From a virus, in IMG/VR virus record IMGVR_UViG_3300030106_005700, positions 8,782 through 31,346 of that record: a DNA stretch of 22,565 bases, one strand, 5' to 3'. Shown here piece by piece: positions 3,566 through 22,565 of the stretch (the first letter of the stretch is position 1; each line of letters begins with the position of its first letter). Below the pieces are notes generated by a model, which did not search any database, had not been told where the DNA came from, and saw only the letters and a list, made by a program, of their open reading frames with translations. A program made the translations under genes and the position numbers.

Positions 3566-6500
3566 ATGGCGAGAATAAATAATGTTTTCAATCAAGGTAA
3601 AATGAATAAAGACCTTGATGAAAGAGTAATACCTAATGGTCAGTATAGGCACGCTATGAACGTGCAACTATCTACTTCAGATGGATCTAACACAGGTGTT
3701 ATACAAAATTTATTAGGAAACCAAATGTTATCGCAACAAATAAACATATCTAACGGTATATGTGTAGGTTCTATTGTAGATGAAGGAGAAAATGCAATTT
3801 ATTGGTTTGTTACTGATGACAATAGAGATATGATACTAGAGTATAAAAACGGTATTACTAAAACTGTTTTTAACGATCCTAGTAGAGAAGTTTTAAAATA
3901 TAAAGATGTAGCTGAATATGGCGGTACTGATATAATAACTGGTATAAATATATTAGATAATTTTTTGTTTTGGACAGATAATGAAAGTGAACCTAAAAAA
4001 ATAAATATACCAAACTCAATATCTGGTACAGATCAAGCTGATGATACAGCACAAACTAAACTTGTTATTAATAACACTGTATCTGCTACAAATGTTACAG
4101 AAGATCATATTACTGTAATAAAAAAATCACCTAAATATCCACCTTTACTTGAAATGTCAGACGGTAGAAGACAAGGTTTTTTGTCTGCTACTATAAATTA
4201 TGATTTTAGTGGATTACAAGTTGGTGATCAAATTAATATTCAAGATGATGACTTATTAGGTAACGGTATCATGATGAGTTGGTTTGAAGATGATATTATT
4301 GTTTTACAATATTACGATGACAATGTACCTGTTACACCTTTAACTGAGTATCAAGTAAAGCTACAAATAGTAAATATAAATCACACACCTGGTGGTGTAA
4401 GTAACAATGGTTTACCAATACCACCTGACACTGATTATGATTTAGAAATAATAAGTATATCTAACAACACTCCTTTAGGTTTAGATATATCCACTGGCTT
4501 AGCACCTTCTTTTGTTATAGATTTATTTGAATCTATTGAAAAAATATTTGAATTTAAATTTCCAAGATTTGCTTATAGATGGAGATATATTGATAAAGAA
4601 TATTCTACATTTTCACCTTTTTCTGAAGTAGCTTTTTTACCTGGTGTTTTTGATTATCACCCTAAAAAAGGTTATAATATAGGTATGACAAACAACTTAG
4701 CGCAACTTTTTATAAAAGAGTTTGTTACTCCAGATATACCAGAAGATGTTGTTGCTATAGATATATTATACAAAGAATCTAATTCTGCAAACGTTTATGT
4801 TGTTGATACTATAAGAAAAAATGATCCTAATATATCAGACGCACCTTATAATGGTAGTACAAACGCTTGGACTTTTCAAAACGCAGATGCTACTTATCCA
4901 GGTATACTTTTAAATAGAGATGGTAGATACGAAATAAAATCAGAAACTATTTATGCTACTTTGCCAGCTAATCAATTATTAAGAGTTTACGATACAGTAC
5001 CTAGAAAAGCTTTAGCTCAAGAAATTACTGGTAATAGATTAATATACGGTAACTATGTACAAAATTATGACCTAAATAATTTAGTAGCAAATTTTAACGT
5101 AAATTTAAAAACATTTGAAAATGTTAGAAATTTAAATCAACCTTTAGGTCAAGCTGTAAAAATACCAAATAAGTCTTTAAAGTCAATAAGAGACTATCAA
5201 GTAGGTGTTATATATTTAGATCAATATGGTAGACAAACACCAATATTAAGTAGTAGCACTGGAGTAAAAAAAATAAGTAAAGCTTTTGCAGATAATTATA
5301 ATCAACTCCAAGTAAGATGTAAACATGATCCACCTTCGTTTGCTACATCTTTTAAATTTTATATAAAAGAAATATCTGGTGAGTTTTATAACTTAGCGTT
5401 AGATCGTTATTACGATGCTGAAGATGAAAACATCTGGTTGTCTTTTCCTTCTTCTGATAGAAACAAAATAGATATAGATACATTTTTAATATTAAAAAAA
5501 GGTACAGAATCTAATGATCTTGTAAAAGAAAAAGCTAGATATAAAGTTTTAGCTATTGAAAATCAAGCTCCAGATTATATAAAAAGAAATGAACTACCTT
5601 TAGGTTTAGAGTTTCATAATAATACTGACAACGATATATTTACTCAAGACTCTACTAAGTTTCCTTTACAATCAAGAGATTTTTTTAGTTTAAACTACGA
5701 GCCGTTTAAAAATAGTAGTTTAGATAATATTCATAAACTTTTGGAAACTTTACTTTCAAAAGAAGAAATACAAGTACAGTTTAAAAACACATCTACACAA
5801 CAAGCTTCAAGAAAATATAGAATAACTAATATATCTGCTTCTGTAGATGCAACAACAGGTATACCAGAGCCTGGTACTCAAGTAGATTTTAAAGTTGATC
5901 CAGCTTTTGAAGGTGATGTAGTTTTTGCTTATGACGAAACTAATAATCAAATAAAAAACATTACTAGTGTTTCTTTTGAAAAAGTTATTGTTGAAAATAA
6001 ACCTGAATTTGATGGTAAGTTTTTTGTAAAAATATTAACCGATGATATTATAAAAAAACATTTAGAACCAGCTATAACTGCAGATACTCAGTATAGAACT
6101 GTTGCTTCAAGAAAAATATATTACAGAGGATCAGACTTTTTAAATATACACTCAAATGGTGAAACAACTTTAAACGCTACTAATTATCATGATAATGGTG
6201 TTGAAGCTACTAATTTTAGTGCACCTACGGGTTCAGGTCGTAGAAATGATCTTTGGGATTATTGGTATAAGTTTTGCGCTTACGCAAGGCAAAGCCATCA
6301 ACACTATCCAGCCGCAAATAGAGTAGCGCAGTCAGTAGACGTAACACAAGGTACATATCAAGACGTTTGGTTTATAAATGATTACAACTGGATTGATCAA
6401 AGTAGTGGTATTAACGACACTTCTGGTTCTTATAGTACTGAAGACCATGCTAATTCAGGAGCTAATTATCTGCAAAATAAAACAGGAAACGGTATAACAA

Positions 6501-9500
6501 GTTGGTCAAATAATTCTAGAATAGAAATATCTATAACAGGCTTAGAACCTGATCCAGATAATATACAAACTTCACCTTCAAGTGTAGATAAATATTATAC
6601 TGACGATTACAATGATGACGACGGTTGGACAACAGGTACTTCTTCTATATACAATGTTGGTGAAGGAAATATAAACGAAGTTTTTTCTACAGAAACTTCT
6701 TTTGTAAATTCTTTATTTGTTGGTAATACGTTTAGATGGAAAGAAGATCCAACTGGAACTGTTTATACTATAACATCTATCACAAGAAGATATTTATTAG
6801 AGTACAACGGTGATGATAGTAACACAACCTACAATAGATATAGAAGACCAGAAAACTATACTACTTCTTGGGTTATGTATTTAGATAAGCCAATAGCTTG
6901 GGATCCTACAAATCCTAACGATGGTCAAGAAGCAATGAATGGTTTTTCACCAAATACAAATCCATATGCTGAGTTTGCTGTTGATGGTACAACTAGCAAC
7001 ACGCCTAGCTCTGGTGTAACATGGTCTGGTATTAGTATAGCTCAAGGTTATAACTTAGAGTTTGTTGAGCCTTTGTATGATGATAAAATAATGCCAACAA
7101 ATCCTAGTATATTTGAAACAGAACCAAAAGAACAAGTTGATTTAGATATATATTATGAGGCTAGTCAAGAATATCCTATAACTCTTACTACAGATAATTT
7201 TCCAAACGTTATTAAAATAGGTTCTAATGTAACTTTACCAACCTGGAATACTACTGACAACCTGGGTAGTGGAGACGCTGTAGTTGTAGGTTTTTCTAAT
7301 GATAAAATTAGATTACTAAGTAACAACTGGACTGGCTTGTCAATAGCTGCAAACACTATATTGCAATTTACTACTAGTGGTAAAACTATAAATCTAGAAA
7401 CGTTGTCTTATACAGGACCTGATCCAGTTACGCAAGAAGTTTTACTTGAAGTAAAAACAGATCTTCATGACTCACCAATAGAGTTAGACTTTTTTAATTG
7501 TTATAGTTTTGCAAATGGTGTTGAGTCTAATAGAATTAGAGATAATTTTAACGCTGTAACAATAGATAAAGGTGCTGTAGTTTCAACAACATTAGATGAT
7601 GAAAATTTATATAACGAAGACAGAAAAACAAATGGTTTAATATTTTCTGGTATATATAACTCTGTGGGTGGTGTTAACGAATTAAACCAGTTTATACAAG
7701 CAGAAAAAATTACAAAAGATATAAACCCTACATACGGTAGTGTTCAAAAGCTATTTAGTAGAAATACTGATTTAATAGCTTTTTGTGAAGACAGAGTTAT
7801 AAAAATACTAGCAAACAAAGACGCGGTGTTTAATGCTGATGGTAATCCTCAGCTAACTGCTAATCAAAACGTGCTTGGACAGACAATACCATTTGTTGGT
7901 GACTACGGTATATCAAAAAATCCAGAGTCTTTTGCTAGTGAAAGCTATAGAGCTTACTTTGCTGATAAACAAAGAGGCGCAGTGCTTAGATTATCAATGG
8001 ATGGTTTAACCGCTATATCCAACGATGGTATGAGAGATTATTTTGGTGAAAAATTAAAAGAAGGAACATATATTATTGGTAGTTATGACAACAATAAAGA
8101 AGAATATAATTTAACAGTTTGGAAAGGTGATCTTACAGGTGGTGGTGGATCAAGTGTTACTGTTAGTTATGATGAAAAAGTAAAAGGCTGGACTAGCTTT
8201 AAATCGTTTATACCAGAAAGTGGTTGCGGTATACAAAATGATTATTTTACCTTTAAAAGAGGAAATATATATAAACATCATGTTCCAGGTACTACTGCTA
8301 ATGAGTTTTATGGTGTACAGAAAGACTCTCGTGTTAGATTTATTTTTAACCAAGATCCTTCAATGATTAAATCATTTAATTCAATAATGTATGAAGGTAG
8401 TCAAGGTAAAGTTCAAAGAGGTGCTGGTTATACAGATAACAATTTTTACGGTTATAAAAGTTTATATAATAAAAAAGGTTGGTATGTACAAACAATAAGC
8501 ACAGAAAAAGGAAAAGGTAATGTATTAAACTTTTTAGAAAAAGAAGACAAGTGGTTTGGTAGTATAAGAGGTAAAAGCAATGGTGTAAACGATATTGATT
8601 TAAAAAACTTTTCAGTTCAAGGTATTGGTACTATATCAAGTATAGATGTTGTTGTGCCACCTTACACTTTAAACGCTGGTAATATAAGTTTAAGTAATCC
8701 TTCAAATACTTTTAACACGTCTACAATAGATTATAGTTTTACACCAGCTACACAAACAGGTAGCGTAGCTTTTCCAATAACATATACTGTTGAAGTAAAT
8801 ACTGGTACTCAAGGTTTACAAACCTTAATGACTGTAGATCAAAACGGTAACCCAACTTCTTTACACGAACCAAACACTGTTTACAACCATGTTGTATCTT
8901 CAAATACTAACCCTGCTGATCCAGACAACAACCATACATTTATAGTAACAGCAACTGATAGCAACGGACAAACTGTTGGTGGTTTTAATTTTATGAATTC
9001 AATATCAACTTTAGCTATCCCACCACTTGCTATGAACGCACCAGTGTTAACAATAAATACAAACACTAGTTCTTCCGTAATAATAGATTTAGATGTTGCG
9101 ACTGCTACAGGTGGTTATGCGCCTTATACCTATACGGGTGAATATGTACAAAACGGTGGTGTGTTTAATATATATCCAGCTCCAGTGCCTGGTATTCAAT
9201 CTGTTAATATTTTACCTACGCCTAACCAAGCTTACGATATAGACTTTAACATAACAGTAACAGATAGTCAAGGTAACTCAATTGTTCAAACATCAACTAT
9301 AAATGCTGGTGTTTCTTTACCACCTGTTCAATTAGGTCCTATAACTTTTCTTGATTCACCACCTACTTCACCACCAACGTATACATATACTTCTTATGCG
9401 AGTCTTAATTATATTAGTTTTGGTATTACAATTGAGACTCCAGTTGCTAGTAATCTTGCTGATCCAATATATGGTCAATATTTTATAGATGATATATATT

Positions 9501-9808
9501 GGGTAGATCAATTCGGTGCAAACCATTCAATAGTGTTATTGCCTTCACCTGTATACAATATAGCTGGTGATCCTTCTTCTGGTTTAGCAAGTCTTAGCAG
9601 CATTACATCAGCCTTTATTAATGGACCAATTGATTTTACTACTTTTGTTAACAATGGAAATGCTTACGCTATTGATGACATTTTTATGCCTAATCCACCT
9701 TCAGGTATTAATACCAGCACTTTGCTTTACGCGGTAGTAACCGTGTATGATATTAACACAGGTCTTTCTAGTACAGGAACAGCAACTTTAACTGTTCTTT
9801 TCGATTAA
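3566..9808 (+). CDS. Giant tail stabilization/muzzle-like protein with Ig-like C-terminus
   Basis: A 2080-residue beta-rich protein. The N-terminus (FNQGKMNKDLDERVIPNGQY, residues 8-27, followed by an NVQLSTSDGSNTG segment and VIQNLLGN) and the stretch around residues 1533-1600 (SYDEKVKGWTSFKSF, YFTFKRGNIYKHH, EFYGVQKDSRVRFIF) match the pattern I know as the P22 gp10-like stabilization protein, the muzzle of crAss-like phages. It would form the hub that closes the short tail. Residues about 1000-1060 are Asp/Tyr/Asn-rich. From about 1695 to the end, three Ig/PKD-like segments follow one another, two of them ending in a VTATDSNGQ or VTVTDSQGN motif. These extend the protein beyond the core and probably face outward. 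It lies between the adaptor gene (3-base gap) and a fibre-like gene. The tail-hub call is fairly sure; the individual domain limits are not. Confidence 0.8.
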   Translation: MARINNVFNQGKMNKDLDERVIPNGQYRHAMNVQLSTSDGSNTGVIQNLLGNQMLSQQINISNGICVGSIVDEGENAIYWFVTDDNRDMILEYKNGITKTVFNDPSREVLKYKDVAEYGGTDIITGINILDNFLFWTDNESEPKKINIPNSISGTDQADDTAQTKLVINNTVSATNVTEDHITVIKKSPKYPPLLEMSDGRRQGFLSATINYDFSGLQVGDQINIQDDDLLGNGIMMSWFEDDIIVLQYYDDNVPVTPLTEYQVKLQIVNINHTPGGVSNNGLPIPPDTDYDLEIISISNNTPLGLDISTGLAPSFVIDLFESIEKIFEFKFPRFAYRWRYIDKEYSTFSPFSEVAFLPGVFDYHPKKGYNIGMTNNLAQLFIKEFVTPDIPEDVVAIDILYKESNSANVYVVDTIRKNDPNISDAPYNGSTNAWTFQNADATYPGILLNRDGRYEIKSETIYATLPANQLLRVYDTVPRKALAQEITGNRLIYGNYVQNYDLNNLVANFNVNLKTFENVRNLNQPLGQAVKIPNKSLKSIRDYQVGVIYLDQYGRQTPILSSSTGVKKISKAFADNYNQLQVRCKHDPPSFATSFKFYIKEISGEFYNLALDRYYDAEDENIWLSFPSSDRNKIDIDTFLILKKGTESNDLVKEKARYKVLAIENQAPDYIKRNELPLGLEFHNNTDNDIFTQDSTKFPLQSRDFFSLNYEPFKNSSLDNIHKLLETLLSKEEIQVQFKNTSTQQASRKYRITNISASVDATTGIPEPGTQVDFKVDPAFEGDVVFAYDETNNQIKNITSVSFEKVIVENKPEFDGKFFVKILTDDIIKKHLEPAITADTQYRTVASRKIYYRGSDFLNIHSNGETTLNATNYHDNGVEATNFSAPTGSGRRNDLWDYWYKFCAYARQSHQHYPAANRVAQSVDVTQGTYQDVWFINDYNWIDQSSGINDTSGSYSTEDHANSGANYLQNKTGNGITSWSNNSRIEISITGLEPDPDNIQTSPSSVDKYYTDDYNDDDGWTTGTSSIYNVGEGNINEVFSTETSFVNSLFVGNTFRWKEDPTGTVYTITSITRRYLLEYNGDDSNTTYNRYRRPENYTTSWVMYLDKPIAWDPTNPNDGQEAMNGFSPNTNPYAEFAVDGTTSNTPSSGVTWSGISIAQGYNLEFVEPLYDDKIMPTNPSIFETEPKEQVDLDIYYEASQEYPITLTTDNFPNVIKIGSNVTLPTWNTTDNLGSGDAVVVGFSNDKIRLLSNNWTGLSIAANTILQFTTSGKTINLETLSYTGPDPVTQEVLLEVKTDLHDSPIELDFFNCYSFANGVESNRIRDNFNAVTIDKGAVVSTTLDDENLYNEDRKTNGLIFSGIYNSVGGVNELNQFIQAEKITKDINPTYGSVQKLFSRNTDLIAFCEDRVIKILANKDAVFNADGNPQLTANQNVLGQTIPFVGDYGISKNPESFASESYRAYFADKQRGAVLRLSMDGLTAISNDGMRDYFGEKLKEGTYIIGSYDNNKEEYNLTVWKGDLTGGGGSSVTVSYDEKVKGWTSFKSFIPESGCGIQNDYFTFKRGNIYKHHVPGTTANEFYGVQKDSRVRFIFNQDPSMIKSFNSIMYEGSQGKVQRGAGYTDNNFYGYKSLYNKKGWYVQTISTEKGKGNVLNFLEKEDKWFGSIRGKSNGVNDIDLKNFSVQGIGTISSIDVVVPPYTLNAGNISLSNPSNTFNTSTIDYSFTPATQTGSVAFPITYTVEVNTGTQGLQTLMTVDQNGNPTSLHEPNTVYNHVVSSNTNPADPDNNHTFIVTATDSNGQTVGGFNFMNSISTLAIPPLAMNAPVLTINTNTSSSVIIDLDVATATGGYAPYTYTGEYVQNGGVFNIYPAPVPGIQSVNILPTPNQAYDIDFNITVTDSQGNSIVQTSTINAGVSLPPVQLGPITFLDSPPTSPPTYTYTSYASLNYISFGITIETPVASNLADPIYGQYFIDDIYWVDQFGANHSIVLLPSPVYNIAGDPSSGLASLSSITSAFINGPIDFTTFVNNGNAYAIDDIFMPNPPSGINTSTLLYAVVTVYDINTGLSSTGTATLTVLFD

Positions 9809-11654: not shown

Positions 11655-12515
11655 ATGAGTAACGGAACATTTTCTTTATTACCTGAAAACTATCAGTTTG
11701 GAGATTTTACAGGAGGTCTTGGTTTTGGAGGACAACAACAAGGTGGTCTTGACCTGAGCCAGTTTGATTTCAAACCACCTCAAGTACAAAACTTTAATTA
11801 TGGTAGTGGTTTTGGTAGCTCTACATCTCCTCCAACACCAGCTCCAAAAAAAGGCGCTGTGTTTGGCACTACATTTACTGGTATGGATCCAATGTCACAA
11901 GCCGGTTTTATTGGCGGCGCTGCTAAAATAGCTATGGGTTTGTTTGGTAGAAAAGCTAGAAGAAGAGAACAAACAGCTGCTAGACAAGAATATAAAGCAG
12001 CAAGATCAAGATATGAAGCGCTTGATACTAGTAACTTAGCTGCTAATATACAAAATCCATTTGCTGAAAACGTATATGAAGATTTAACAGTAAATCAACA
12101 AGCTGCACAGTTTCAAGCTCAACAAGCTGCTCAATCAAGAGCAAATATATTGCAACAATTACGTGGTTCAGCTGGTGGTAGCGGTATTGCTGGTTTAGCT
12201 CAAGCTTTGGCAAATCAAGCTTCAGTAGCTGCGCAACAAGCTTCTGCAAGTATTGCACAACAAGAATCTGTCAACGAAAGATTAAGAGCTCAAGGAGAGT
12301 TACAAGTACAAAAAGGAGAAATGTTAGTAGAACAACAAAGACTTGCTGGTGCTGAAAGATCAAGAGCGCTAGAATCAAGAAAAACAAGTACGCTGTTTGG
12401 TATGGCGCAACAAAGAAGAGCAGCAGCTGATCAAGCTGTAGCACAAGCAAATGCTGCTTTATACTCTGGTATAGGACAACTTGGAACATCTTTACTAACA
12501 GGTGGAGTTATATAA
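11655..12515 (+). CDS. Putative internal virion/ejection protein (Ala/Gln-rich)
   Basis: A 286-residue protein. Residues 1-65 are Gly/Gln/Pro-rich and disordered-looking. Residues 78-98 are a Gly/Ala-rich hydrophobic stretch (AGFIGGAAKIAMGLF) followed by a basic patch (GRKARRRE). Residues 103-260 are a long Ala/Gln/Arg helix or coiled coil holding NPFAENVYEDLTVNQQAAQF and QLRGSAGGSGIAGLAQALA. I recall this last pattern from virion proteins of marine phages, comparable in place and style to T7 gp14-like internal proteins that cross the cell envelope at injection. The C-terminus (LYSGIGQLGTSLLTGGVI) is again hydrophobic. It heads a run of three probable internal proteins. Ejection with the DNA is inferred from composition and position. 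Confidence 0.65.
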   Translation: MSNGTFSLLPENYQFGDFTGGLGFGGQQQGGLDLSQFDFKPPQVQNFNYGSGFGSSTSPPTPAPKKGAVFGTTFTGMDPMSQAGFIGGAAKIAMGLFGRKARRREQTAARQEYKAARSRYEALDTSNLAANIQNPFAENVYEDLTVNQQAAQFQAQQAAQSRANILQQLRGSAGGSGIAGLAQALANQASVAAQQASASIAQQESVNERLRAQGELQVQKGEMLVEQQRLAGAERSRALESRKTSTLFGMAQQRRAAADQAVAQANAALYSGIGQLGTSLLTGGVI

Positions 12516-14050: not shown

Positions 14051-17000
14051 ATGTATTATAACAAACAAGGAAAATCATTAAATTTTTCACAGATAGCTAA
14101 TGCAGCTATGGCTAGTGATATGTCTGTAGAAAACTACATAGACATGGCTGGTATAACTGAAATGAGCGATGATGTTGTTGCTGTTGACAAAGATGGTTTT
14201 AATTTTGAAAGCAAAGGTGATTTTGATTTTACAGGAACAAGAAAGTTTACTAAAGAAGAAAGAAAAGAAGATGAATTAGCTAGAACTCAAGATCCAAAAT
14301 ATATGGTTGAAGCTATTATGTTTAACACAGAGTTAGATTTAAAGCTTAAAGACATAGATTTTAAAAGAAAAGCTTTAGGCGATAATGAAAGTTTTCAAAT
14401 GGCTACGTTTGCAACTGATGGTGGTGAAAATAGTATATTAAAAGCTACTAAACCTTTATTTGAAAGTAGAGAATATGAAAAGCTTACAAAGTCTGATTTT
14501 CAAAATATTGTATTAGATAAATACTATGCAGAAGTTGAATACGAGTTAGGTATGAAAAAAAGAAAATTAGCTGAAAAAGCTGATGATACAGCCATTGATA
14601 GTTATATAGAAGCTGATGGTACTTTTTCAAACAAGATAGATATGCAAATATCTAGAAAAATGAAAGAATATAGAACTTCTAAAGCTGCTGGTGCAGATTT
14701 TAATTTTGAAAGAATAGAATCAGAAATACAAGAGTTAAAAAATCAAAAAGAAGTTGAAAATAGATCTTATATATTAGATTTAAAAACAGGTACTGTAGTG
14801 CCTAGTAGAGTGCCTTTAGGTAACGAGCAAGAAGGTAAATTTAAATTTAGTTTAGCTGTTAATACAAAGTTAGCAGAGCTTTCTGCAGACCCTGAAGCTT
14901 CTGTTGAAGAAAACATATTGCAGGGCTATAAAACTTCTGTGTTAGCTTTACAACAACTTAATAAAGAGCTTGATAAAACTTATAAATTTAGAGTAGAATA
15001 CCCTGGTGAAAGGTTTAAATTTGTTGACGCTACTTTAAGATCTATGCTTAATTACAAAGTTAATAATCCTTCTTACAAAAACGTAGAGTTTGTAAAGACA
15101 GAAGGTGGTTTAGACAAAACTAAAAGTATACAATCATATACTGAAGATTTAAAACAATACGCTACAGACGTTGAGGTTTACAGACGTATGTATCATTTAA
15201 ACGAAGGTGCTGAAGGTTTAAGTAGAAAAGGTTGGAGTGATTTTGGAAAATATTTTACCGAAAGTTTTGTTGGTACTTACGGTTATAAAGGTGCTATAAA
15301 ACCTAAACGTATAGACGTTATACGTTCTTATGGTAGAACTTTAGGTGAAGTTGGCGTACCGTTTACTGCTAGTGAAAGTGAGTTTTTAGATGGTAAACTT
15401 ACTGACAGTTTAGCTGAGTTTGGTGGAAGTGCTAGATTTTTAGTAGAAATATGGGGTGCTGGTAAGTTTTTAAAACTAGGTAAGTATGCTGTAAAAGCTA
15501 TACCTATGACTAGACAGTGGATAAGAGGTTTGCAAATGTCAAAAAGTTATTATGACAATGCTACGGCTATTGCTTTAACTAGAACTACTTTAAAAGAAGG
15601 TGCTAAGTTTTATATTGCAGAGCAAAGAGCTTTTGGTGATGCTGATTTTAAAACAGCTATAAAAGGCGCTGCGTTTGGCGCTGGTGGATTTGGTGGTGGT
15701 AAATTACTTGGTAGTTTAATTAGCGGTAGTCCTGCTAGAGCAAACTTATATAATTATCTTTTAACATCTCCAATAGCGTTTAATATATCTACTGAGTTTT
15801 CAGAACTTGTAGGTGCTGCTGTTAGTGAATTAAAAGGAACTAGTACTGTAGAAAATTATATAGATAAAGCTTATGGTAATTTTTCTGAAACAACTAGACG
15901 TGTTATATCAAACGGTATATTTTCTTATGCTTTAGGCTTTGGAAGACAGGCTAAAGCAATGTATGATTATAAACAAAAATTTAATTTAGCTACTGCAAGA
16001 AAAGAAATTTTTACTTCTTTAACTGAAACTGCTAAAAAAGCTGGCATAACACCTGAAGAGTTTAATAGTAGTGATTTACATCTTGAATTATTTTCTAAAG
16101 TACAAAGCAGGTTAAAAGGCAAAGAGTTAAAAAAGTTTGAAAACGAATACGAAGCTTTTTTAGATATAGTTGTTAGAGAGCAAGCTCTTAATGGTATAAG
16201 ATCATTTGAAAATCCAAAAGATGCTAAACCTATAATTGAAAGAGAAAACAAAGCTGTTATTGAAGATTACAAAAAAGAGGGTAAAGAAGTTGAAATTAAA
16301 GTAATAACTCAAGAAGAGGCTAAAGCAAGAAAAGATTATGACAGTAGAGATCAAGCTTATTTTGACAAAGTAGGTAATAAGGTTACACTTTCATATATAT
16401 TAGATAAATACTCTTTTAATATTGGTGTGCACGAACAAAGCCATGCTCATGCAGATCTTTTTTTAGGTACTAATATAAAGTTTAATGCTTTGTTTTTTAA
16501 TAAGCTAAAAGGTGTAATGAGTAGAATACAAACAGAGTTTGTAGATAAAGAAGGTAACCCTCAAACTTTAAAACAAACTTTTGAAGCTAAGTTTGGAGAA
16601 GCTCCAGAAGTTAAGCAACATGCAGAAGCTTTTGCTTACGTAGGTGAATTTTTAAGCAACCCGCAAAACTACACTAGAGTAAAACAAGCTAATGGATTTT
16701 ATTCATTACAAGGTGTATTAAGCACTTTAATGAAAGATATAAATCCTAATAGAAAATATAATTTTTCAAAAGAAAAAGATATTGTAAGATGGTTTGGTGA
16801 TTATATACAAACTGTAAAGCGAGGTGGTAGTACAACTAAATTATTTGCTGAGCTTGAAAATGTTGTTGAGCCACCTGCAGAAAAAATAGTTAATGAGACT
16901 GCTGCTGAAACAAATTATCGAACGTTTAAATCAGAACGTATAGATACTAAAAAGTTAAGCGAAGAAATACAAGAAATTTACAAGCAAAAAGGTGAAAATA

Positions 17001-20000
17001 CTACTAAAGAAGATTTAATAAGCTCTTCAAAAAATTATCCTGTAGCTGGAGATAAACTTGGGCCTTTTATTGACGCTGCTATATCTAAATATAACATTAG
17101 TGTTCCTGAGCAATTTCGTATAAGCCTTGCAGATAGAAGTCCTGGTGGTGCTAGATATGATTTAGTAACAGAAATATTATATGATTTAAGCGGTAAAAAT
17201 AGAGGTTTAGACAATATTTTAAAAGCTTATAATCCAGAACAAGGTAAATTATCTACATACTTAACCGGTGTTATAAGGCTTAGAGCTCAAGAATACAAAG
17301 AAAGATCTGTTGATATAAAAGCAGAAGGTACTGAGTTAGGTTTTAAAGTAGATGTAGATAAACTAGATACAATGCCAGCGCCTGACGTTAAACGAACTAT
17401 AACTTCAACGCCATTTGATTCAAAATCTACTGAAGGTATACAAAATAGAAATGAAAAATTTAATATTAATGGTGAAAAAAGAACTTTAAATGAACAAACT
17501 GTTGTTGAAGTAGAAAATGCTTATAAAGAGTTATTTATAAGTGATAATAACCCTACATTGTTTAGTAATGTATCAAGAAAGCTTAGAACATCCACTAGTA
17601 AGTTTATAAACGATCAGTTGGGTATAAGCGAAACAATGGATAATAAAACAGCTGCTATTGTAGCTGAAAGAAATTTTAGACAACAGGCTAAACAGTTGTA
17701 CAAAGGTATGCCAGAGTTTTCTAGTTTAGAGTTTTATGATAATTCACAAATAGGTAAAAGTTATTTAAAATCTTTATTTGAAAACTTAGGTGAAAAATTT
17801 AAAACTAATCAGTTAAGTGAAGCTGAAAGACGAAGAACTAATGCAAGGGCTTATAAATATAAGAAAAAAGATTTTAATGAACCTGAGTTTGTAAATTTAG
17901 TTTTAAGAGGTAGATCGCCAAAAGAAAAGCTTAATAGAATTAAAACATTATATCAGTTTTTTCACGATGTTACAGGTGGTCAAATAGCAAGAGACGTATT
18001 AAATCCTGCAACAACAGCTGGTAAACAGTTTTATAACGAAATACATGTTAAAAACCAAGATGGTGTTTTTATAAATCCTGCTTTAGTTAAAAAATATGAA
18101 GTTGCAACAGCAGAGTTAGCTTTAAAAAGATTTAGAGGACCAACACCAGTAGGTTTAAAATCTGAGCAATTAGTTAGAGATTTAAAAAATCTTAATGTAA
18201 ACGCTCCAGATTATAGAAAACAATTTGTAAACGTTTTATCTATGGCTATTGGCGTTAACGAAGCTGAAAGACTTATTAAAGAAGAAATGCCTAGCTTACA
18301 AGGTGAAGCTGCGGGCGTATTTAAAAAACATAGAGAAGCTTTAGCTCAGCTTGATAAAGTAGGAGAAGCTACGCCAATAAGACAGTTTAGTAGTTTTGGT
18401 GAAGTTAATAAAATTATAGCTGAAAAATATAAAGATTTATTAGGTGTAGACTTAACAAGAAGTGGAACAGAAAAAAGAGGAGATCAAAATTATATTGAAA
18501 CTTACATAAAAGAATTTATTAATGGTTTTGGTAATAAACTGTCAAAAGACGTGTTGCAAATTAGTAGTACAAACACTAGTGGTTTGTTTATAAATTCTGC
18601 TACTTTTTTTGGTAAAGAAAAAATAAATTTAGATGGTACTGTAAAAAGAGTTGTTCAAGACATGCGTACTGTTATGATAAAAGATCTTAAAGGTACAAAC
18701 GAAAAACTAGATTTTTTAAATGAAACTTTTGTTGTAGACAACGGAACTTTTAAAAAAGATGTACTTAAACTGCTTAAAGGAAAGTATAGAAATTTAGAAA
18801 ATAATCCTAATAAAATACCACAATATTTAGCTGAAGTTAAAAAAATGCTTACTAAGCCAGGCTCTACTTACGAAAAAACTTTAGAAGCGAATACTAAATT
18901 AAGAGAGTATTTTTATACTAAGCTTTTTGATTATTATGCTAGCTCAAAAAACAAAGCACAAGCGCTAGATCATATATCTTTTTTCTTGCAAAACCAAACT
19001 AGCATTGGTCATGGTATATCTAGAGCTTTAGCTACTTTTGAAAGCGCTACTATTAAGTTAGGTAGAGGTGTAAGAAATAAAAGAACTGGTAAGATAGAAC
19101 ACTTGTACGGCGAACATCCACTACAAATTGCTAATTTTAATGGTAATTTTATATTAAATATGATTGAAAACGTTGGTAATAAAAAAGCGTTTTTAGAAAA
19201 ATTTAAAACAGTATCTAATGAGTTTAAACAAGGCTTAATTACTAAAAGATTACAATTATTTGTTGATAGTCCAAAAAACGGCGGTAGACTTGGTATAATA
19301 GGTGAAATGAGACAAGATGTAACTATAGGTTCAGAGTCTAATTTTATACGTAATCAAGCTATATTATCTACTCAGTATGATTTAAAAACTGGTAAAAGTT
19401 TTGCTGACAAAATGAATGACGTTGTGTTAGCCGGTAACGTAGTTAAAAAATTAAACAAACAGTTTAAAACAGGTTTTGAAACTGAAAACATGACTACACA
19501 AGAGTTAGTCAATATGTCAGTTACAGTAGATGCTGCTATTGCAAATGGTAGAAAATACAACAAAAAGTCAAGAGGTATGAGCACTTTTGATTTTGACGAA
19601 ACTTTAATTGTAGGTGGTAAAAACTTTGTTACAGCAACTAAAGACGGTGAAACTGTAAAAATTAGTAGTGCTGAATGGCCAACAAAAGGTACTGAGTTAG
19701 CAGCACAAGGTTGGAAAATGGATTTTAAAGATTTTGTAAATGTAAGAGGTGGTACTGATGGGCCTTTGTTACAAAAAATGCGTAATCAAATTAAAAAATT
19801 TGGAGTTGAAAATGTTTTTGTATTAACAGCAAGACAACAACAAGCAGCGCCAGCAATACAAGGTTGGTTAAAATCAAAAGGTATTAATGTGCCTATAGAA
19901 AATATAACTGGTTTAGGTAATAGCACAGGTGAAGCAAAAGCTTTATGGATGTTAGATAAGTTTAGCAAAGGTTATAATGATATGTATTTTGTTGATGACG

Positions 20001-22183
20001 CTATGTCAAATGTTAAAGCTGTTAAAAATGTATTAGAGCAACTTGATATTAAATCAAAAGTACAACAAGCTAGAATATTAAAGTCTGAGCAGTTAACTAA
20101 AGACATGGATGTTATATTAACTGAAACTACAGGTTTGTTTGGTAAAGTTTCTCCTGCTAAAGGAAAGCTACTAGGACAAAGAACTTATACTAAATCTATT
20201 ATAGTTCCTGGTGCTCAAGATTTTGCTGGTTTATTGCAAAACTTTCAAGGTTTTGGTAAGTTAGGTGAAAAACATAAAGCGTTTTTTGATGATAATTTAC
20301 ACAAACCATATTCTAGAGCTTATAACGAGTTAAATGCAGCTCAACAAGCTATAACTTCAGATTACAAAGCTTTAGGCGCTTTGTTGCCTACAGTAAAAAA
20401 GAAACTAAATAAAAAAATACCTGGTGAACCTTTTACATACGATCAAGCTATAAGAGTACATAGATGGACAGAAGCTGGGTTTGAAGTACCTGGTTTAAGC
20501 GAAGCAGATGTTAAACTTTTAACTGATGTAGTTAAAAACGATAGAAGTTTGTTAAGTTTTTCACAAAACTTAGCTAGAATAACAAAACAAAAACAAGGTT
20601 ATATAGAACCTACAGAAGCTTGGACTTCGCAAAGTATTGTTAGTGATTTAAATAATTTAATACAAAAAGTAAATAGAGATGCTTATTTTACTGAGTTTAG
20701 ACAAAACAGAGAGTTAGTTTTTGGTAAATGGGAAAATGGCAAGTTGGTTGGTGAAAACATGAATAAAATAGAGGCTACTCAAGGGCCTTTATTTAAAGAA
20801 GCTTTAGAAGATATATTATGGCGTATGGAAACTGGTAGCAATAGACCTGCTGGTCAAAATAAAGCTGTTAACATGCACATGAATTTTATAAATGGTTCTG
20901 TTGGTGCAACAATGTTTTTAAACACTAGATCTGCTACGTTACAAACACTGTCTACATTAAACTATATAAATTGGAGTGATAATAATCCTTTAGCAGCAGC
21001 AAAAGCTTTTGGTAATCAAAAGCAATATTGGTCTGACTTTTCTTTTATATTTAATTCAGACTTACTTAAACAAAGAAGAGCTGGTTTAAAATATAACGTT
21101 CAAGAAGCTGAGCTTGCACAAATAGCAGCTGGTGGTGATGGAACTGGTATTGCTAGAAAAATATTTGCACGTTTAATTAAAATAGGTTTTACACCTACAC
21201 AAATTGCAGATAGTTTTGCAATATCTGCAGGTGGTGCTACGTTTTATAGGAATAGAATAAATACTTATATTAAACAAGGTTTAAGCGGTAAAGAAGCTCA
21301 ACAAAAAGCTTTTATAGATTTTCAAGAAAAAACAGAAGTAGCACAGCAGTCTTCAAGGCCAGATTTAATATCTCCACAACAAGCTGGACCTATGGGTCGT
21401 ATGATATTTGCTTGGGGTAATACGCCTATGCAGTACGCTAGAATACAAGAAAAAGCTGCTCGTGATTTAATAAATAATAGAGGTAATAAAAAAGAAAATA
21501 TATCTAAACTATTATACTATGGATTTGTACAGTCTGTTGCGTTTACAGCGATGCAAAACGCTATGTTTGCTTTTTCATTAGACGAAGAAGGTTCTTTTGA
21601 TAAAGATGAAAAGTCTAAAAGATTAAATAGAATGGTAAACAACATGGCAGACTCTCAGTTAAGAGGTATAGGTATACCTGGCGCTATAGCTTCTACTGTA
21701 AAAAATACTGTAACTGAGTTTCAAAAACAAAAAGAAAGAGGTTTTAGAGCAGATCATACAGCAACAATGAATCAACTATTAAGCTACTCACCAGTTCTTG
21801 GTTCTAAATTTAGAAAAATATTTGGTTATACAGGTGTTGGTGGTAGCTTGTTAAAAGGTCAAACAAATTATGAAGCATCTATGTTAATGGGTTTTGATTT
21901 AAATAACCCTCAAACTTTAGCTTATGCTAATTTAGTAGAAGCAACTACAAATGTACCTATGGGTAGAACTGTAAATAAATTAAGAAACTTACAAATAGCT
22001 GCAGACGCTAATTATCAATGGTGGCAAAGAGCTGCTGCGTTTGGTGGTTGGGGCTCTTGGGAGCTTGGTATTGAAAATGAAGGTTTTGAAGATGCTGTAA
22101 GAAAAATAAAAGCAATTAGAAAATCACAGAAATCATTTGGTAAAAGTAGTAGTAAAAAAAGTGGTAAAAGTTTTAAAAAATAA
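14051..22183 (+). CDS. Giant polyvalent internal virion protein (zincin, sigma2-like, HAD)
   Basis: A 2710-residue protein, by position the ejected giant of the virion. Parts in order: a helical N-terminal region (1-450); a Gly/Ala-rich, partly hydrophobic region (about 460-620) that could contact membranes; a metallopeptidase-like motif HEQSH at 794-798, with E859 in AEAFAYV as a possible third zinc ligand; a sigma-70 region-2-like segment at 1037-1079 (DLVTEILYDL ... AYNPEQGKLSTYL ... IRLRAQEY); and a HAD phosphatase domain at about 1840-2025 with D1847/D1849 (DFDET), T1926 (LTAR), K1963 and D1982/D1983 (FVDD), so all four motifs are intact. A conserved C-terminal module at about 2300-2680 (QQSSRPD 2432-2438, NTPMQYARIQ from 2457, a late NVPMGR) is typical of phage large polyvalent proteins. 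The last 20 residues are a Lys/Ser tail. It would enter the cell with the DNA and act early. Catalysis is inferred from motifs only. Confidence 0.8.
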   Translation: MYYNKQGKSLNFSQIANAAMASDMSVENYIDMAGITEMSDDVVAVDKDGFNFESKGDFDFTGTRKFTKEERKEDELARTQDPKYMVEAIMFNTELDLKLKDIDFKRKALGDNESFQMATFATDGGENSILKATKPLFESREYEKLTKSDFQNIVLDKYYAEVEYELGMKKRKLAEKADDTAIDSYIEADGTFSNKIDMQISRKMKEYRTSKAAGADFNFERIESEIQELKNQKEVENRSYILDLKTGTVVPSRVPLGNEQEGKFKFSLAVNTKLAELSADPEASVEENILQGYKTSVLALQQLNKELDKTYKFRVEYPGERFKFVDATLRSMLNYKVNNPSYKNVEFVKTEGGLDKTKSIQSYTEDLKQYATDVEVYRRMYHLNEGAEGLSRKGWSDFGKYFTESFVGTYGYKGAIKPKRIDVIRSYGRTLGEVGVPFTASESEFLDGKLTDSLAEFGGSARFLVEIWGAGKFLKLGKYAVKAIPMTRQWIRGLQMSKSYYDNATAIALTRTTLKEGAKFYIAEQRAFGDADFKTAIKGAAFGAGGFGGGKLLGSLISGSPARANLYNYLLTSPIAFNISTEFSELVGAAVSELKGTSTVENYIDKAYGNFSETTRRVISNGIFSYALGFGRQAKAMYDYKQKFNLATARKEIFTSLTETAKKAGITPEEFNSSDLHLELFSKVQSRLKGKELKKFENEYEAFLDIVVREQALNGIRSFENPKDAKPIIERENKAVIEDYKKEGKEVEIKVITQEEAKARKDYDSRDQAYFDKVGNKVTLSYILDKYSFNIGVHEQSHAHADLFLGTNIKFNALFFNKLKGVMSRIQTEFVDKEGNPQTLKQTFEAKFGEAPEVKQHAEAFAYVGEFLSNPQNYTRVKQANGFYSLQGVLSTLMKDINPNRKYNFSKEKDIVRWFGDYIQTVKRGGSTTKLFAELENVVEPPAEKIVNETAAETNYRTFKSERIDTKKLSEEIQEIYKQKGENTTKEDLISSSKNYPVAGDKLGPFIDAAISKYNISVPEQFRISLADRSPGGARYDLVTEILYDLSGKNRGLDNILKAYNPEQGKLSTYLTGVIRLRAQEYKERSVDIKAEGTELGFKVDVDKLDTMPAPDVKRTITSTPFDSKSTEGIQNRNEKFNINGEKRTLNEQTVVEVENAYKELFISDNNPTLFSNVSRKLRTSTSKFINDQLGISETMDNKTAAIVAERNFRQQAKQLYKGMPEFSSLEFYDNSQIGKSYLKSLFENLGEKFKTNQLSEAERRRTNARAYKYKKKDFNEPEFVNLVLRGRSPKEKLNRIKTLYQFFHDVTGGQIARDVLNPATTAGKQFYNEIHVKNQDGVFINPALVKKYEVATAELALKRFRGPTPVGLKSEQLVRDLKNLNVNAPDYRKQFVNVLSMAIGVNEAERLIKEEMPSLQGEAAGVFKKHREALAQLDKVGEATPIRQFSSFGEVNKIIAEKYKDLLGVDLTRSGTEKRGDQNYIETYIKEFINGFGNKLSKDVLQISSTNTSGLFINSATFFGKEKINLDGTVKRVVQDMRTVMIKDLKGTNEKLDFLNETFVVDNGTFKKDVLKLLKGKYRNLENNPNKIPQYLAEVKKMLTKPGSTYEKTLEANTKLREYFYTKLFDYYASSKNKAQALDHISFFLQNQTSIGHGISRALATFESATIKLGRGVRNKRTGKIEHLYGEHPLQIANFNGNFILNMIENVGNKKAFLEKFKTVSNEFKQGLITKRLQLFVDSPKNGGRLGIIGEMRQDVTIGSESNFIRNQAILSTQYDLKTGKSFADKMNDVVLAGNVVKKLNKQFKTGFETENMTTQELVNMSVTVDAAIANGRKYNKKSRGMSTFDFDETLIVGGKNFVTATKDGETVKISSAEWPTKGTELAAQGWKMDFKDFVNVRGGTDGPLLQKMRNQIKKFGVENVFVLTARQQQAAPAIQGWLKSKGINVPIENITGLGNSTGEAKALWMLDKFSKGYNDMYFVDDAMSNVKAVKNVLEQLDIKSKVQQARILKSEQLTKDMDVILTETTGLFGKVSPAKGKLLGQRTYTKSIIVPGAQDFAGLLQNFQGFGKLGEKHKAFFDDNLHKPYSRAYNELNAAQQAITSDYKALGALLPTVKKKLNKKIPGEPFTYDQAIRVHRWTEAGFEVPGLSEADVKLLTDVVKNDRSLLSFSQNLARITKQKQGYIEPTEAWTSQSIVSDLNNLIQKVNRDAYFTEFRQNRELVFGKWENGKLVGENMNKIEATQGPLFKEALEDILWRMETGSNRPAGQNKAVNMHMNFINGSVGATMFLNTRSATLQTLSTLNYINWSDNNPLAAAKAFGNQKQYWSDFSFIFNSDLLKQRRAGLKYNVQEAELAQIAAGGDGTGIARKIFARLIKIGFTPTQIADSFAISAGGATFYRNRINTYIKQGLSGKEAQQKAFIDFQEKTEVAQQSSRPDLISPQQAGPMGRMIFAWGNTPMQYARIQEKAARDLINNRGNKKENISKLLYYGFVQSVAFTAMQNAMFAFSLDEEGSFDKDEKSKRLNRMVNNMADSQLRGIGIPGAIASTVKNTVTEFQKQKERGFRADHTATMNQLLSYSPVLGSKFRKIFGYTGVGGSLLKGQTNYEASMLMGFDLNNPQTLAYANLVEATTNVPMGRTVNKLRNLQIAADANYQWWQRAAAFGGWGSWELGIENEGFEDAVRKIKAIRKSQKSFGKSSSKKSGKSFKK

Positions 22184-22186
22184 AAA

Positions 22187-22565
22187 ATGAAAAAAATATT
22201 AATATTAATATCAATTATATTAGTTTCTTGTGCTGCACCTAAAAAGTGTTGCTCGCAAGATATAAAGAAAATATTTAAATTTTCTACGTTTTATGCAGCG
22301 GCAAATGGTGGTACATCTATATCAGATGTTGATATATTTTCTGTTACAAACGGTTTAGAAACGTCTACAGTAAAAACACCTTATGATTATAATTTAGTGT
22401 TAGGTATACGTAAAATAGCTAGATTTGGTTATGAAAATAGAGCACAAACGTTTTACGATGGTACAGAAAACTCTTGGTCTGATGGTGCTAATATAGGTAA
22501 AGTATCTGGTTTAGAGTTTTTGTTTGAAGTTGATTATAGTAGACAGCAAGGTAACGAATATATTG
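22187..22565 (+). CDS. Phage-encoded lipoprotein with beta-barrel-like body (3'-truncated)
   Basis: The reading frame starts at the ATG three bases after the giant gene and is still open at the window edge (126 full codons). The first 15 residues, MKKILILISIILVSC, are a lipoprotein signal with lipobox LVSC, so the mature protein would start at Cys15. Three lysines and two more cysteines follow (CAAPKKCCSQ). The body (FKFSTFYAAANGGTSISD, PYDYNLVLGIRKIARFGYEN, GLEFLFEVDYSRQQG) has the alternating aromatic pattern of an outer-membrane beta-barrel or its periplasmic partner. I recall similar proteins in Bacteroidota phages at this place in the structural module. It would act at the host outer membrane, perhaps changing the surface of the infected cell, or as a virion component. 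The signal is clear; the role is not. Confidence 0.75.
   Translation, partial: MKKILILISIILVSCAAPKKCCSQDIKKIFKFSTFYAAANGGTSISDVDIFSVTNGLETSTVKTPYDYNLVLGIRKIARFGYENRAQTFYDGTENSWSDGANIGKVSGLEFLFEVDYSRQQGNEYI

Follow-up and report, generated by a model that had tools for sequence, protein, structure and literature searches.

A 2710-residue virion-type protein combining zincin-like, HAD phosphatase and σ region 2-like parts in a probable Bacteroidota phage

Results

The giant gene, its neighbours and its relatives

The stretch of DNA analysed here (the window, 22,565 nucleotides) covers positions 8782-31346 of the 31,346-base IMG/VR virus record IMGVR_UViG_3300030106_005700. Terminase- and portal-like genes lie upstream of a giant ORF, which is immediately preceded by a small and a medium gene (Table 1). 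The portal protein matched 87 phage records, nearly all of them from Flavobacterium or Cellulophaga, together with Tenacibaculum, Maribacter and one unassigned spring phage. A second giant of 2080 aa, encoded at window positions 3566-9808, is a homologue of flavobacterial podovirus structural proteins (phrog_14478, E 8e-135) and matched the same phage groups. Moreover, type IX secretion sorting domains, a Bacteroidota trait, are encoded in some relatives. The flavobacterial matches and the sorting domains both back the assignment to a Bacteroidota phage made in a preliminary description of this DNA, and the host group is probably Bacteroidota. In two related contigs (L019, positions 15053-17191 and 20605-21810; L022, positions 14611-16455), phage proteins end in Por_Secre_tail or CHU_C sorting domains; owing to these terminal type IX signals, they might use the secretion machinery of the host for export.

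Table 1. Features of the giant gene and its two upstream neighbours (window positions)
Feature	Position	Strand	Basis
Small ejection-type protein, 286 aa, Ala/Gln/Gly-rich	11655..12515	+	profile match to phi18:3 gp120 set
Medium ejection-type protein, 504 aa	12527..14041	+	adjoins giant; weak profile match to phi18:3 gp121
Giant protein, whole ORF	14051..22183	+	single open frame, 2710 aa, conserved family
N-terminal module, residues 391-640, Gly/Ala-rich hydrophobic segments	15221..15970	+	hhalign to cultured phage giants
Zincin-like metallopeptidase domain, residues 722-900	16214..16750	+	invariant HExxH and Glu; predicted core elements; weak zincin-fold matches
HExxH (HEQSH), residues 794-798	16430..16444	+	motif
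E859, probable third zinc ligand	16625..16627	+	invariance
σ70 region 2-like segment, residues 1003-1087	17057..17311	+	hhalign 68% with controls; fold match Z 3.9
HAD phosphatase domain, polynucleotide 3′-phosphatase type, residues 1839-2009	19565..20077	+	complete motifs I-IV; PNKP fold matches; phrog_415
C-terminal all-helical module, residues 2045-2680	20183..22090	+	most conserved part of the family; model; fold matches; no Pfam match

The giant is indeed one open frame, as had been reported, and it is conserved with its relatives, which are 2229-3829 aa long; in one of them (L101) the giant ORF appears split. Whole-protein BLAST of the window giant found no match in 50,697 phage records, nor did that of a divergent family member among cultured phages, and a Pfam search with the window protein returned weak DUF2608 and Wbp11 matches and nothing else. 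First scans of IMG/VR retrieved 22 loci, and a scan with the family alignment located the HAD and C-terminal part in at least 495 IMG/VR contigs. Another 12 contigs carrying the giant are binned in bacterial or archaeal MAGs, some of these bins being implausible as hosts. All known family members come from uncultured viruses.

A comparison of domain order across related contigs had been proposed, and it gave a uniform picture: wherever the 5′ end of a relative's ORF is intact, the ORF carries one HExxH upstream of the HAD domain, at a distance of about 830-1380 residues (mostly 830-1240), and the medium and small genes are recognizable before the giant in nearly all relatives. Judged from these sequences, the layout is not peculiar to this contig and is the rule in hundreds of uncultured phages.

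The N-terminal module links the giant to virion proteins

The position of the giant directly after two probable ejection proteins was confirmed. The family of the small protein matched phi18:3 gp120, phi38:1 gp099, Elemovirus gp20 and Panino, taken as a set, at 97.1% (E 5e-11; controls ≤0.9%), and the medium-protein family weakly resembled phi18:3 gp121 and the corresponding proteins of the other phages (38%, E 3.4e-4; controls ≤0.4%). In 75 relatives the medium gene lies directly 5′ of the giant with gaps of –4 to 69 nt, and the small, medium and giant genes form an operon-like run comparable to the T7 gp14/15/16 or N4 gp52/51/50 sets.

Residues 391-640 of the giant were aligned by hhalign with Elemovirus gp18 (98.0%, E 2e-13), phi38:1 gp101 (97.6%), gp123 of Cellulophaga phage phi18:3 (94.8%, E 5e-8) and the Panino giant (80.5%), as compared with ≤0.2% for reversed or permuted controls; the Manatee Spring giant was not matched (1.2%). 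In the latter phage (ctfjg026, L124 741-12320), the counterpart giant of 3859 aa contains HExxH-type motifs and bears the public name “reticulocyte binding/rhoptry protein”. Since gp120, gp121 and gp123 of phi18:3 are annotated as virion proteins from MS/MS, the profile homology makes the giant kin to a virion protein, a relation distinct from injection, and its N-terminal end belongs by descent to the virion giants. Our confidence that the giant is itself a virion protein is fairly high on these sequence grounds. Its position also agrees: phi18:3 gp123, phi38:1 gp101 and Flavobacterium Elemovirus gp18 are each the last gene of the structural block, and the small-medium-giant order is that of phi18:3 gp120-gp121-gp123.

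A complete HAD active site of the PNKP type

The HAD active site is complete, as originally noted, with motifs I-IV intact: DFDET (1847-1851), LTAR (1925-1928), K1963/K1970 and DD (1982-1983). Four residues that played no part in retrieving the relatives (T1926, R1928, K1963 and K1970) are identical in 90 of 90 of them, whereas the invariance of D1847, F1848, D1849 and T1851 follows in part from the selection of relatives by HAD patterns. Large insertions between motifs I and II occur in five relatives (L018, L019, L077, L107 and L110), the last of which also carries a long insert after the HAD domain with a duplicated LDQLDxKSxVQQ stretch.

In the AlphaFold model of residues 1815-2710 (pLDDT 84), the HAD part matched the T4 Pnkp 3′-phosphatase with Z 13.2 and an rmsd of 2.4 Å over 126 residues. 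PNKP structures occupy ranks 1-5 (Z 13.2, 12.6, 12.5, 12.0 and 11.9; bacterial Pnkp1 is the one at 12.6), ranks less than one Z unit apart being ties. The polynucleotide kinase family phrog_415 matched 10 of 20 members (best E 4.9e-8) and is the only PHROG common to many of them. A HAD-only profile found nothing significant among PDB sequences, with PNKP ranked first at E 0.28. Predicted structure, PHROG profile and the top non-significant PDB sequence matches all name PNKP. An RNA ligase is encoded in 5 of 14 longer relatives and an AAA_33 kinase in none of these 14 records, which may be incomplete; without this kinase family among the 14, a full T4-type repair pathway is unsupported.

Invariant zincin residues

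The zincin-like motif noticed earlier proved robust. H794, E795, H798 and the downstream E859 are the same in each of the 80-85 aligned relatives, which had been retrieved via HAD patterns and hence independently of HExxH, and they are the sole invariant residues in the alignment of positions 720-1330. An acidic residue occupies position 866 in 76 of 80 relatives. The model (pLDDT 67) predicts a helix, three strands, the HExxH helix and a helix with E859, in this order, an arrangement that PMC5512222 describes for polyvalent zincins. Fold matches are weak (Z ≤4.5), the recurrent ones being zincin-type proteins such as lethal-factor chains and MATCAP, and a zincin-only profile found nothing significant among PDB sequences.

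A segment resembling region 2 of σ factors

A query of 80 sequences, covering residues 985-1115 and cut from the family alignment without motif selection, was compared with 28 genuine σ region 2 sequences from two Bacteroidota MAGs. The two profiles were collinear over region 2 (hhalign 68%, E 4.8e-5), as opposed to ≤0.4% for reversed or permuted controls and ≤4.6% for sliding windows over residues 715-2710 away from this stretch. The score depends on the sample, since half-samples gave 3-56%, and on the reference: ECF-type sequences reached 70% and primary σ factors, represented by three sequences only, 0.6%. Thermus σA was matched by fold at rank 4 (Z 3.9, rmsd 2.8 Å over 64 aa, 22% identity), a score lower than those normally relied on. 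Sigma70_r2 was the sole Pfam match to the segment, at an E value of 0.076 that is not significant by itself. A σ profile built from motif-selected sequences placed a σ factor on top of the PDB matches (E 0.012) and carries little weight. The paired tryptophans of region 2.3 of primary σ factors are absent, and a Sigma70_r4 search of the window protein up to E 10 was negative, with a chance-level match in one relative (E 0.012).

Residues 1003-1087 therefore probably adopt a σ2-like fold, as judged from profile and model. Of the σ70 region 2-like segment proposed in the preliminary description, the profile similarity stood well above controls, while no region 4 was detected and the resemblance stays at the level of a domain. 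Identity with σ70 region 2 is plausible, not proven; it is above chance and the weakest of the enzymatic or regulatory assignments. In sum, AlphaFold models gave structural matches for all three domains, clear for HAD and weak for the zincin and σ parts, and our confidence is high for the HAD and zincin motifs and moderate for σ2. A separate σ-like ORF of 253-264 aa is present in 9 of 14 longer-relative records, in four of which (L057, L082, L084 and L094) it lies about 1.5-2 kb from an RNA ligase.

The conserved C-terminal module

The all-helical C-terminal module resembles, by predicted fold only, phage proteins themselves predicted to be polyvalent: viral proteins annotated as PolyVal ART, LPD or MuF matched most of the model with probability 1.00 and large rmsd. 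No Pfam LPD profile matched the window protein or 20 members; an LPD38 search was silent everywhere, its controls included. A profile of HAD plus C-terminal module found nothing in the giants of phi38:1, phi18:3 and Elemovirus; used by itself, the C-terminal module gave no match to the C-termini of cultured-phage giants either. The reported polyvalent module thus holds as a strongly conserved unit with a similar fold, but not as a sequence match to the Pfam LPD families.

Discussion

The giant combines at least two unrelated activities in one chain (zincin and HAD, plus the probable σ region 2) and adjoins late virion genes. In both respects it is like the phage polyvalent proteins treated in PMC5512222, with disparate enzyme-like domains per chain, a zincin hub and virion-gene neighbours. 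According to that source, zincins have been proposed to process polyvalent proteins, and zincin polyvalent proteins near virion genes are known (PMC5512222, Iyer et al. 2017). Proteins of this kind are already known. The C-terminal fold, as modelled, is similar to that of predicted LPD/ART polyvalent proteins; unlike the catalogued ones, the giant has no LPD profile match. The words “phosphatase” and “sigma” do not occur in the main text of PMC5512222.

Three proteins are ejected by podoviruses, with gp16 the largest in T7 and gp50 the largest in N4 (PMC12633501). N4 gp50 contains an HExxH subdomain as well as C2, a large helical region without known homologues (PMC12633501), and it and DEV gp71 are giant virion RNA polymerases (PMC12633501, PMC10925440). 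The giant resembles them as the largest member of a three-protein ejection operon with an HExxH domain and a big helical C-terminal region. It differs in its HAD and σ2-like parts and in that no RNA polymerase domain was detected; the search for phage-type RNA polymerases also left its controls unmatched, and we make no claim of absence. Jumbo phages are known to carry PNK-HAD phosphatases for RNA repair (PMC7824862). The HAD domain is like these and T4 polynucleotide kinase-phosphatase in fold, motifs and top structural match, and unlike the T4 enzyme in its ejection-type giant context, without a kinase half and with the ligase elsewhere in some relatives.

We propose, with a probability of about 0.5, that the giant is the largest of a small-medium-giant ejection set (286, 504 and 2710 aa) in a Bacteroidota phage with a short tail, and thus a virion polyvalent protein whose enzymes act after entry. 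The N-terminal kinship with virion proteins, the fused domains and the layout common to hundreds of viruses point to a multi-tool probably injected with the viral DNA. Copies would be packed into the head and, ahead of the DNA or together with it, threaded through the tail, and the N-terminal module may engage the envelope alongside the small and medium channel proteins. The zincin could then cleave its own chain, or a host protein, and release the modules. The HAD domain might strip 3′-phosphates from broken RNA or DNA ends of host or phage, making them sealable, while the σ-like segment might contact host RNA polymerase and favour the first phage transcripts. Early host takeover by the giant is our inference. 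A still bolder version, in which a widespread class of marine Bacteroidota phages injects a self-cleaving giant ahead of the genome, the σ-like module commandeers host RNA polymerase and the 3′-phosphatase heals nucleic acids broken by defence systems, we regard as decidedly unlikely; here the giant would use the host's polymerase to the end for which N4 injects its own.

Part of this proposal depends on what the individual domains do. HAD folds tolerate many substrates, and the domain could act on proteins, nucleotides or other small phosphates instead of nucleic-acid ends, in line with matches to Ceg4 (Foldseek probability 0.99), Lem4 (Z 9.6), and AphA and MDP-1 (Z about 10). As PNKP accounts for all five of the best structural matches (Z 11.9-13.2) and phrog_415 is the only PHROG that many members share, we consider such a substrate somewhat unlikely. 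For the σ-like segment the choice is closer: a helical DNA- or protein-binding element that converged on region 2 and does not bind RNA polymerase comes near to an even chance. The undetected region 4, the missing tryptophan pair and a moderate score that varies with sampling would all fit convergence, which is opposed by the low control scores, by the restriction of the signal to residues 985-1115 and by the naming of σ region 2 by three methods (profile, Pfam and structure).

Other alternatives concern the protein as a whole. It would be highly improbable for the giant to be an intracellular late protein that lies within the structural operon by chance: its position, the operon spacing and the homology to MS/MS-annotated virion proteins all speak against this. 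A virion ejection protein whose enzymes serve assembly or delivery only, with the zincin maturing the protein in the head, the HAD domain acting on packaged or terminal DNA ends and no host target, accommodates the N-terminal and small-protein homologies equally. A precedent in PMC5512222 is P1 DdrB, which is processed before packaging, its own zincin being the suggested agent. Nevertheless, HExxH is lacking in three counterpart giants (phi38:1 gp101, phi18:3 gp123 and Panino) and HAD in all five comparison giants, so that zincin and HAD are dispensable for assembly in general, and we judge an assembly-only role unlikely.

The phi18:3, phi38:1 and Elemovirus giants differ in the middle and match neither the HAD domain nor the C-terminal module in sequence, and of these three only the Elemovirus giant has HExxH. 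No cultured phage matched the HAD/C-terminal part. This suggests that in flavobacterial short-tailed phages the last structural gene keeps its N-terminal module and swaps the enzyme payload behind it. The homology of module 391-640 to phi18:3 gp123, an annotated virion protein, is newly found here by profile comparison. As for the domain set, which had been put forward as new, no published injected giant with a PNKP-type HAD or σ2-like part was found in the literature searched, which is weak evidence of absence; the architecture itself is standard in hundreds of uncultured phages. If the proposal is correct, an abundant uncultured marine phage group has an early-infection toolkit unlike the injected polymerase of N4, and it becomes testable whether virions deliver σ-like control over host transcription and whether pre-made repair of nucleic-acid ends counters nuclease-based defences.

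The gene 3′ of the giant (window positions 22187-22564, open at the contig end; positions 13780-14367 in the relative L002) encodes a signal of lipoprotein type (LVSC) and a sequence resembling an outer-membrane barrel; in many relatives a gene of 340-365 aa lies at the same place.
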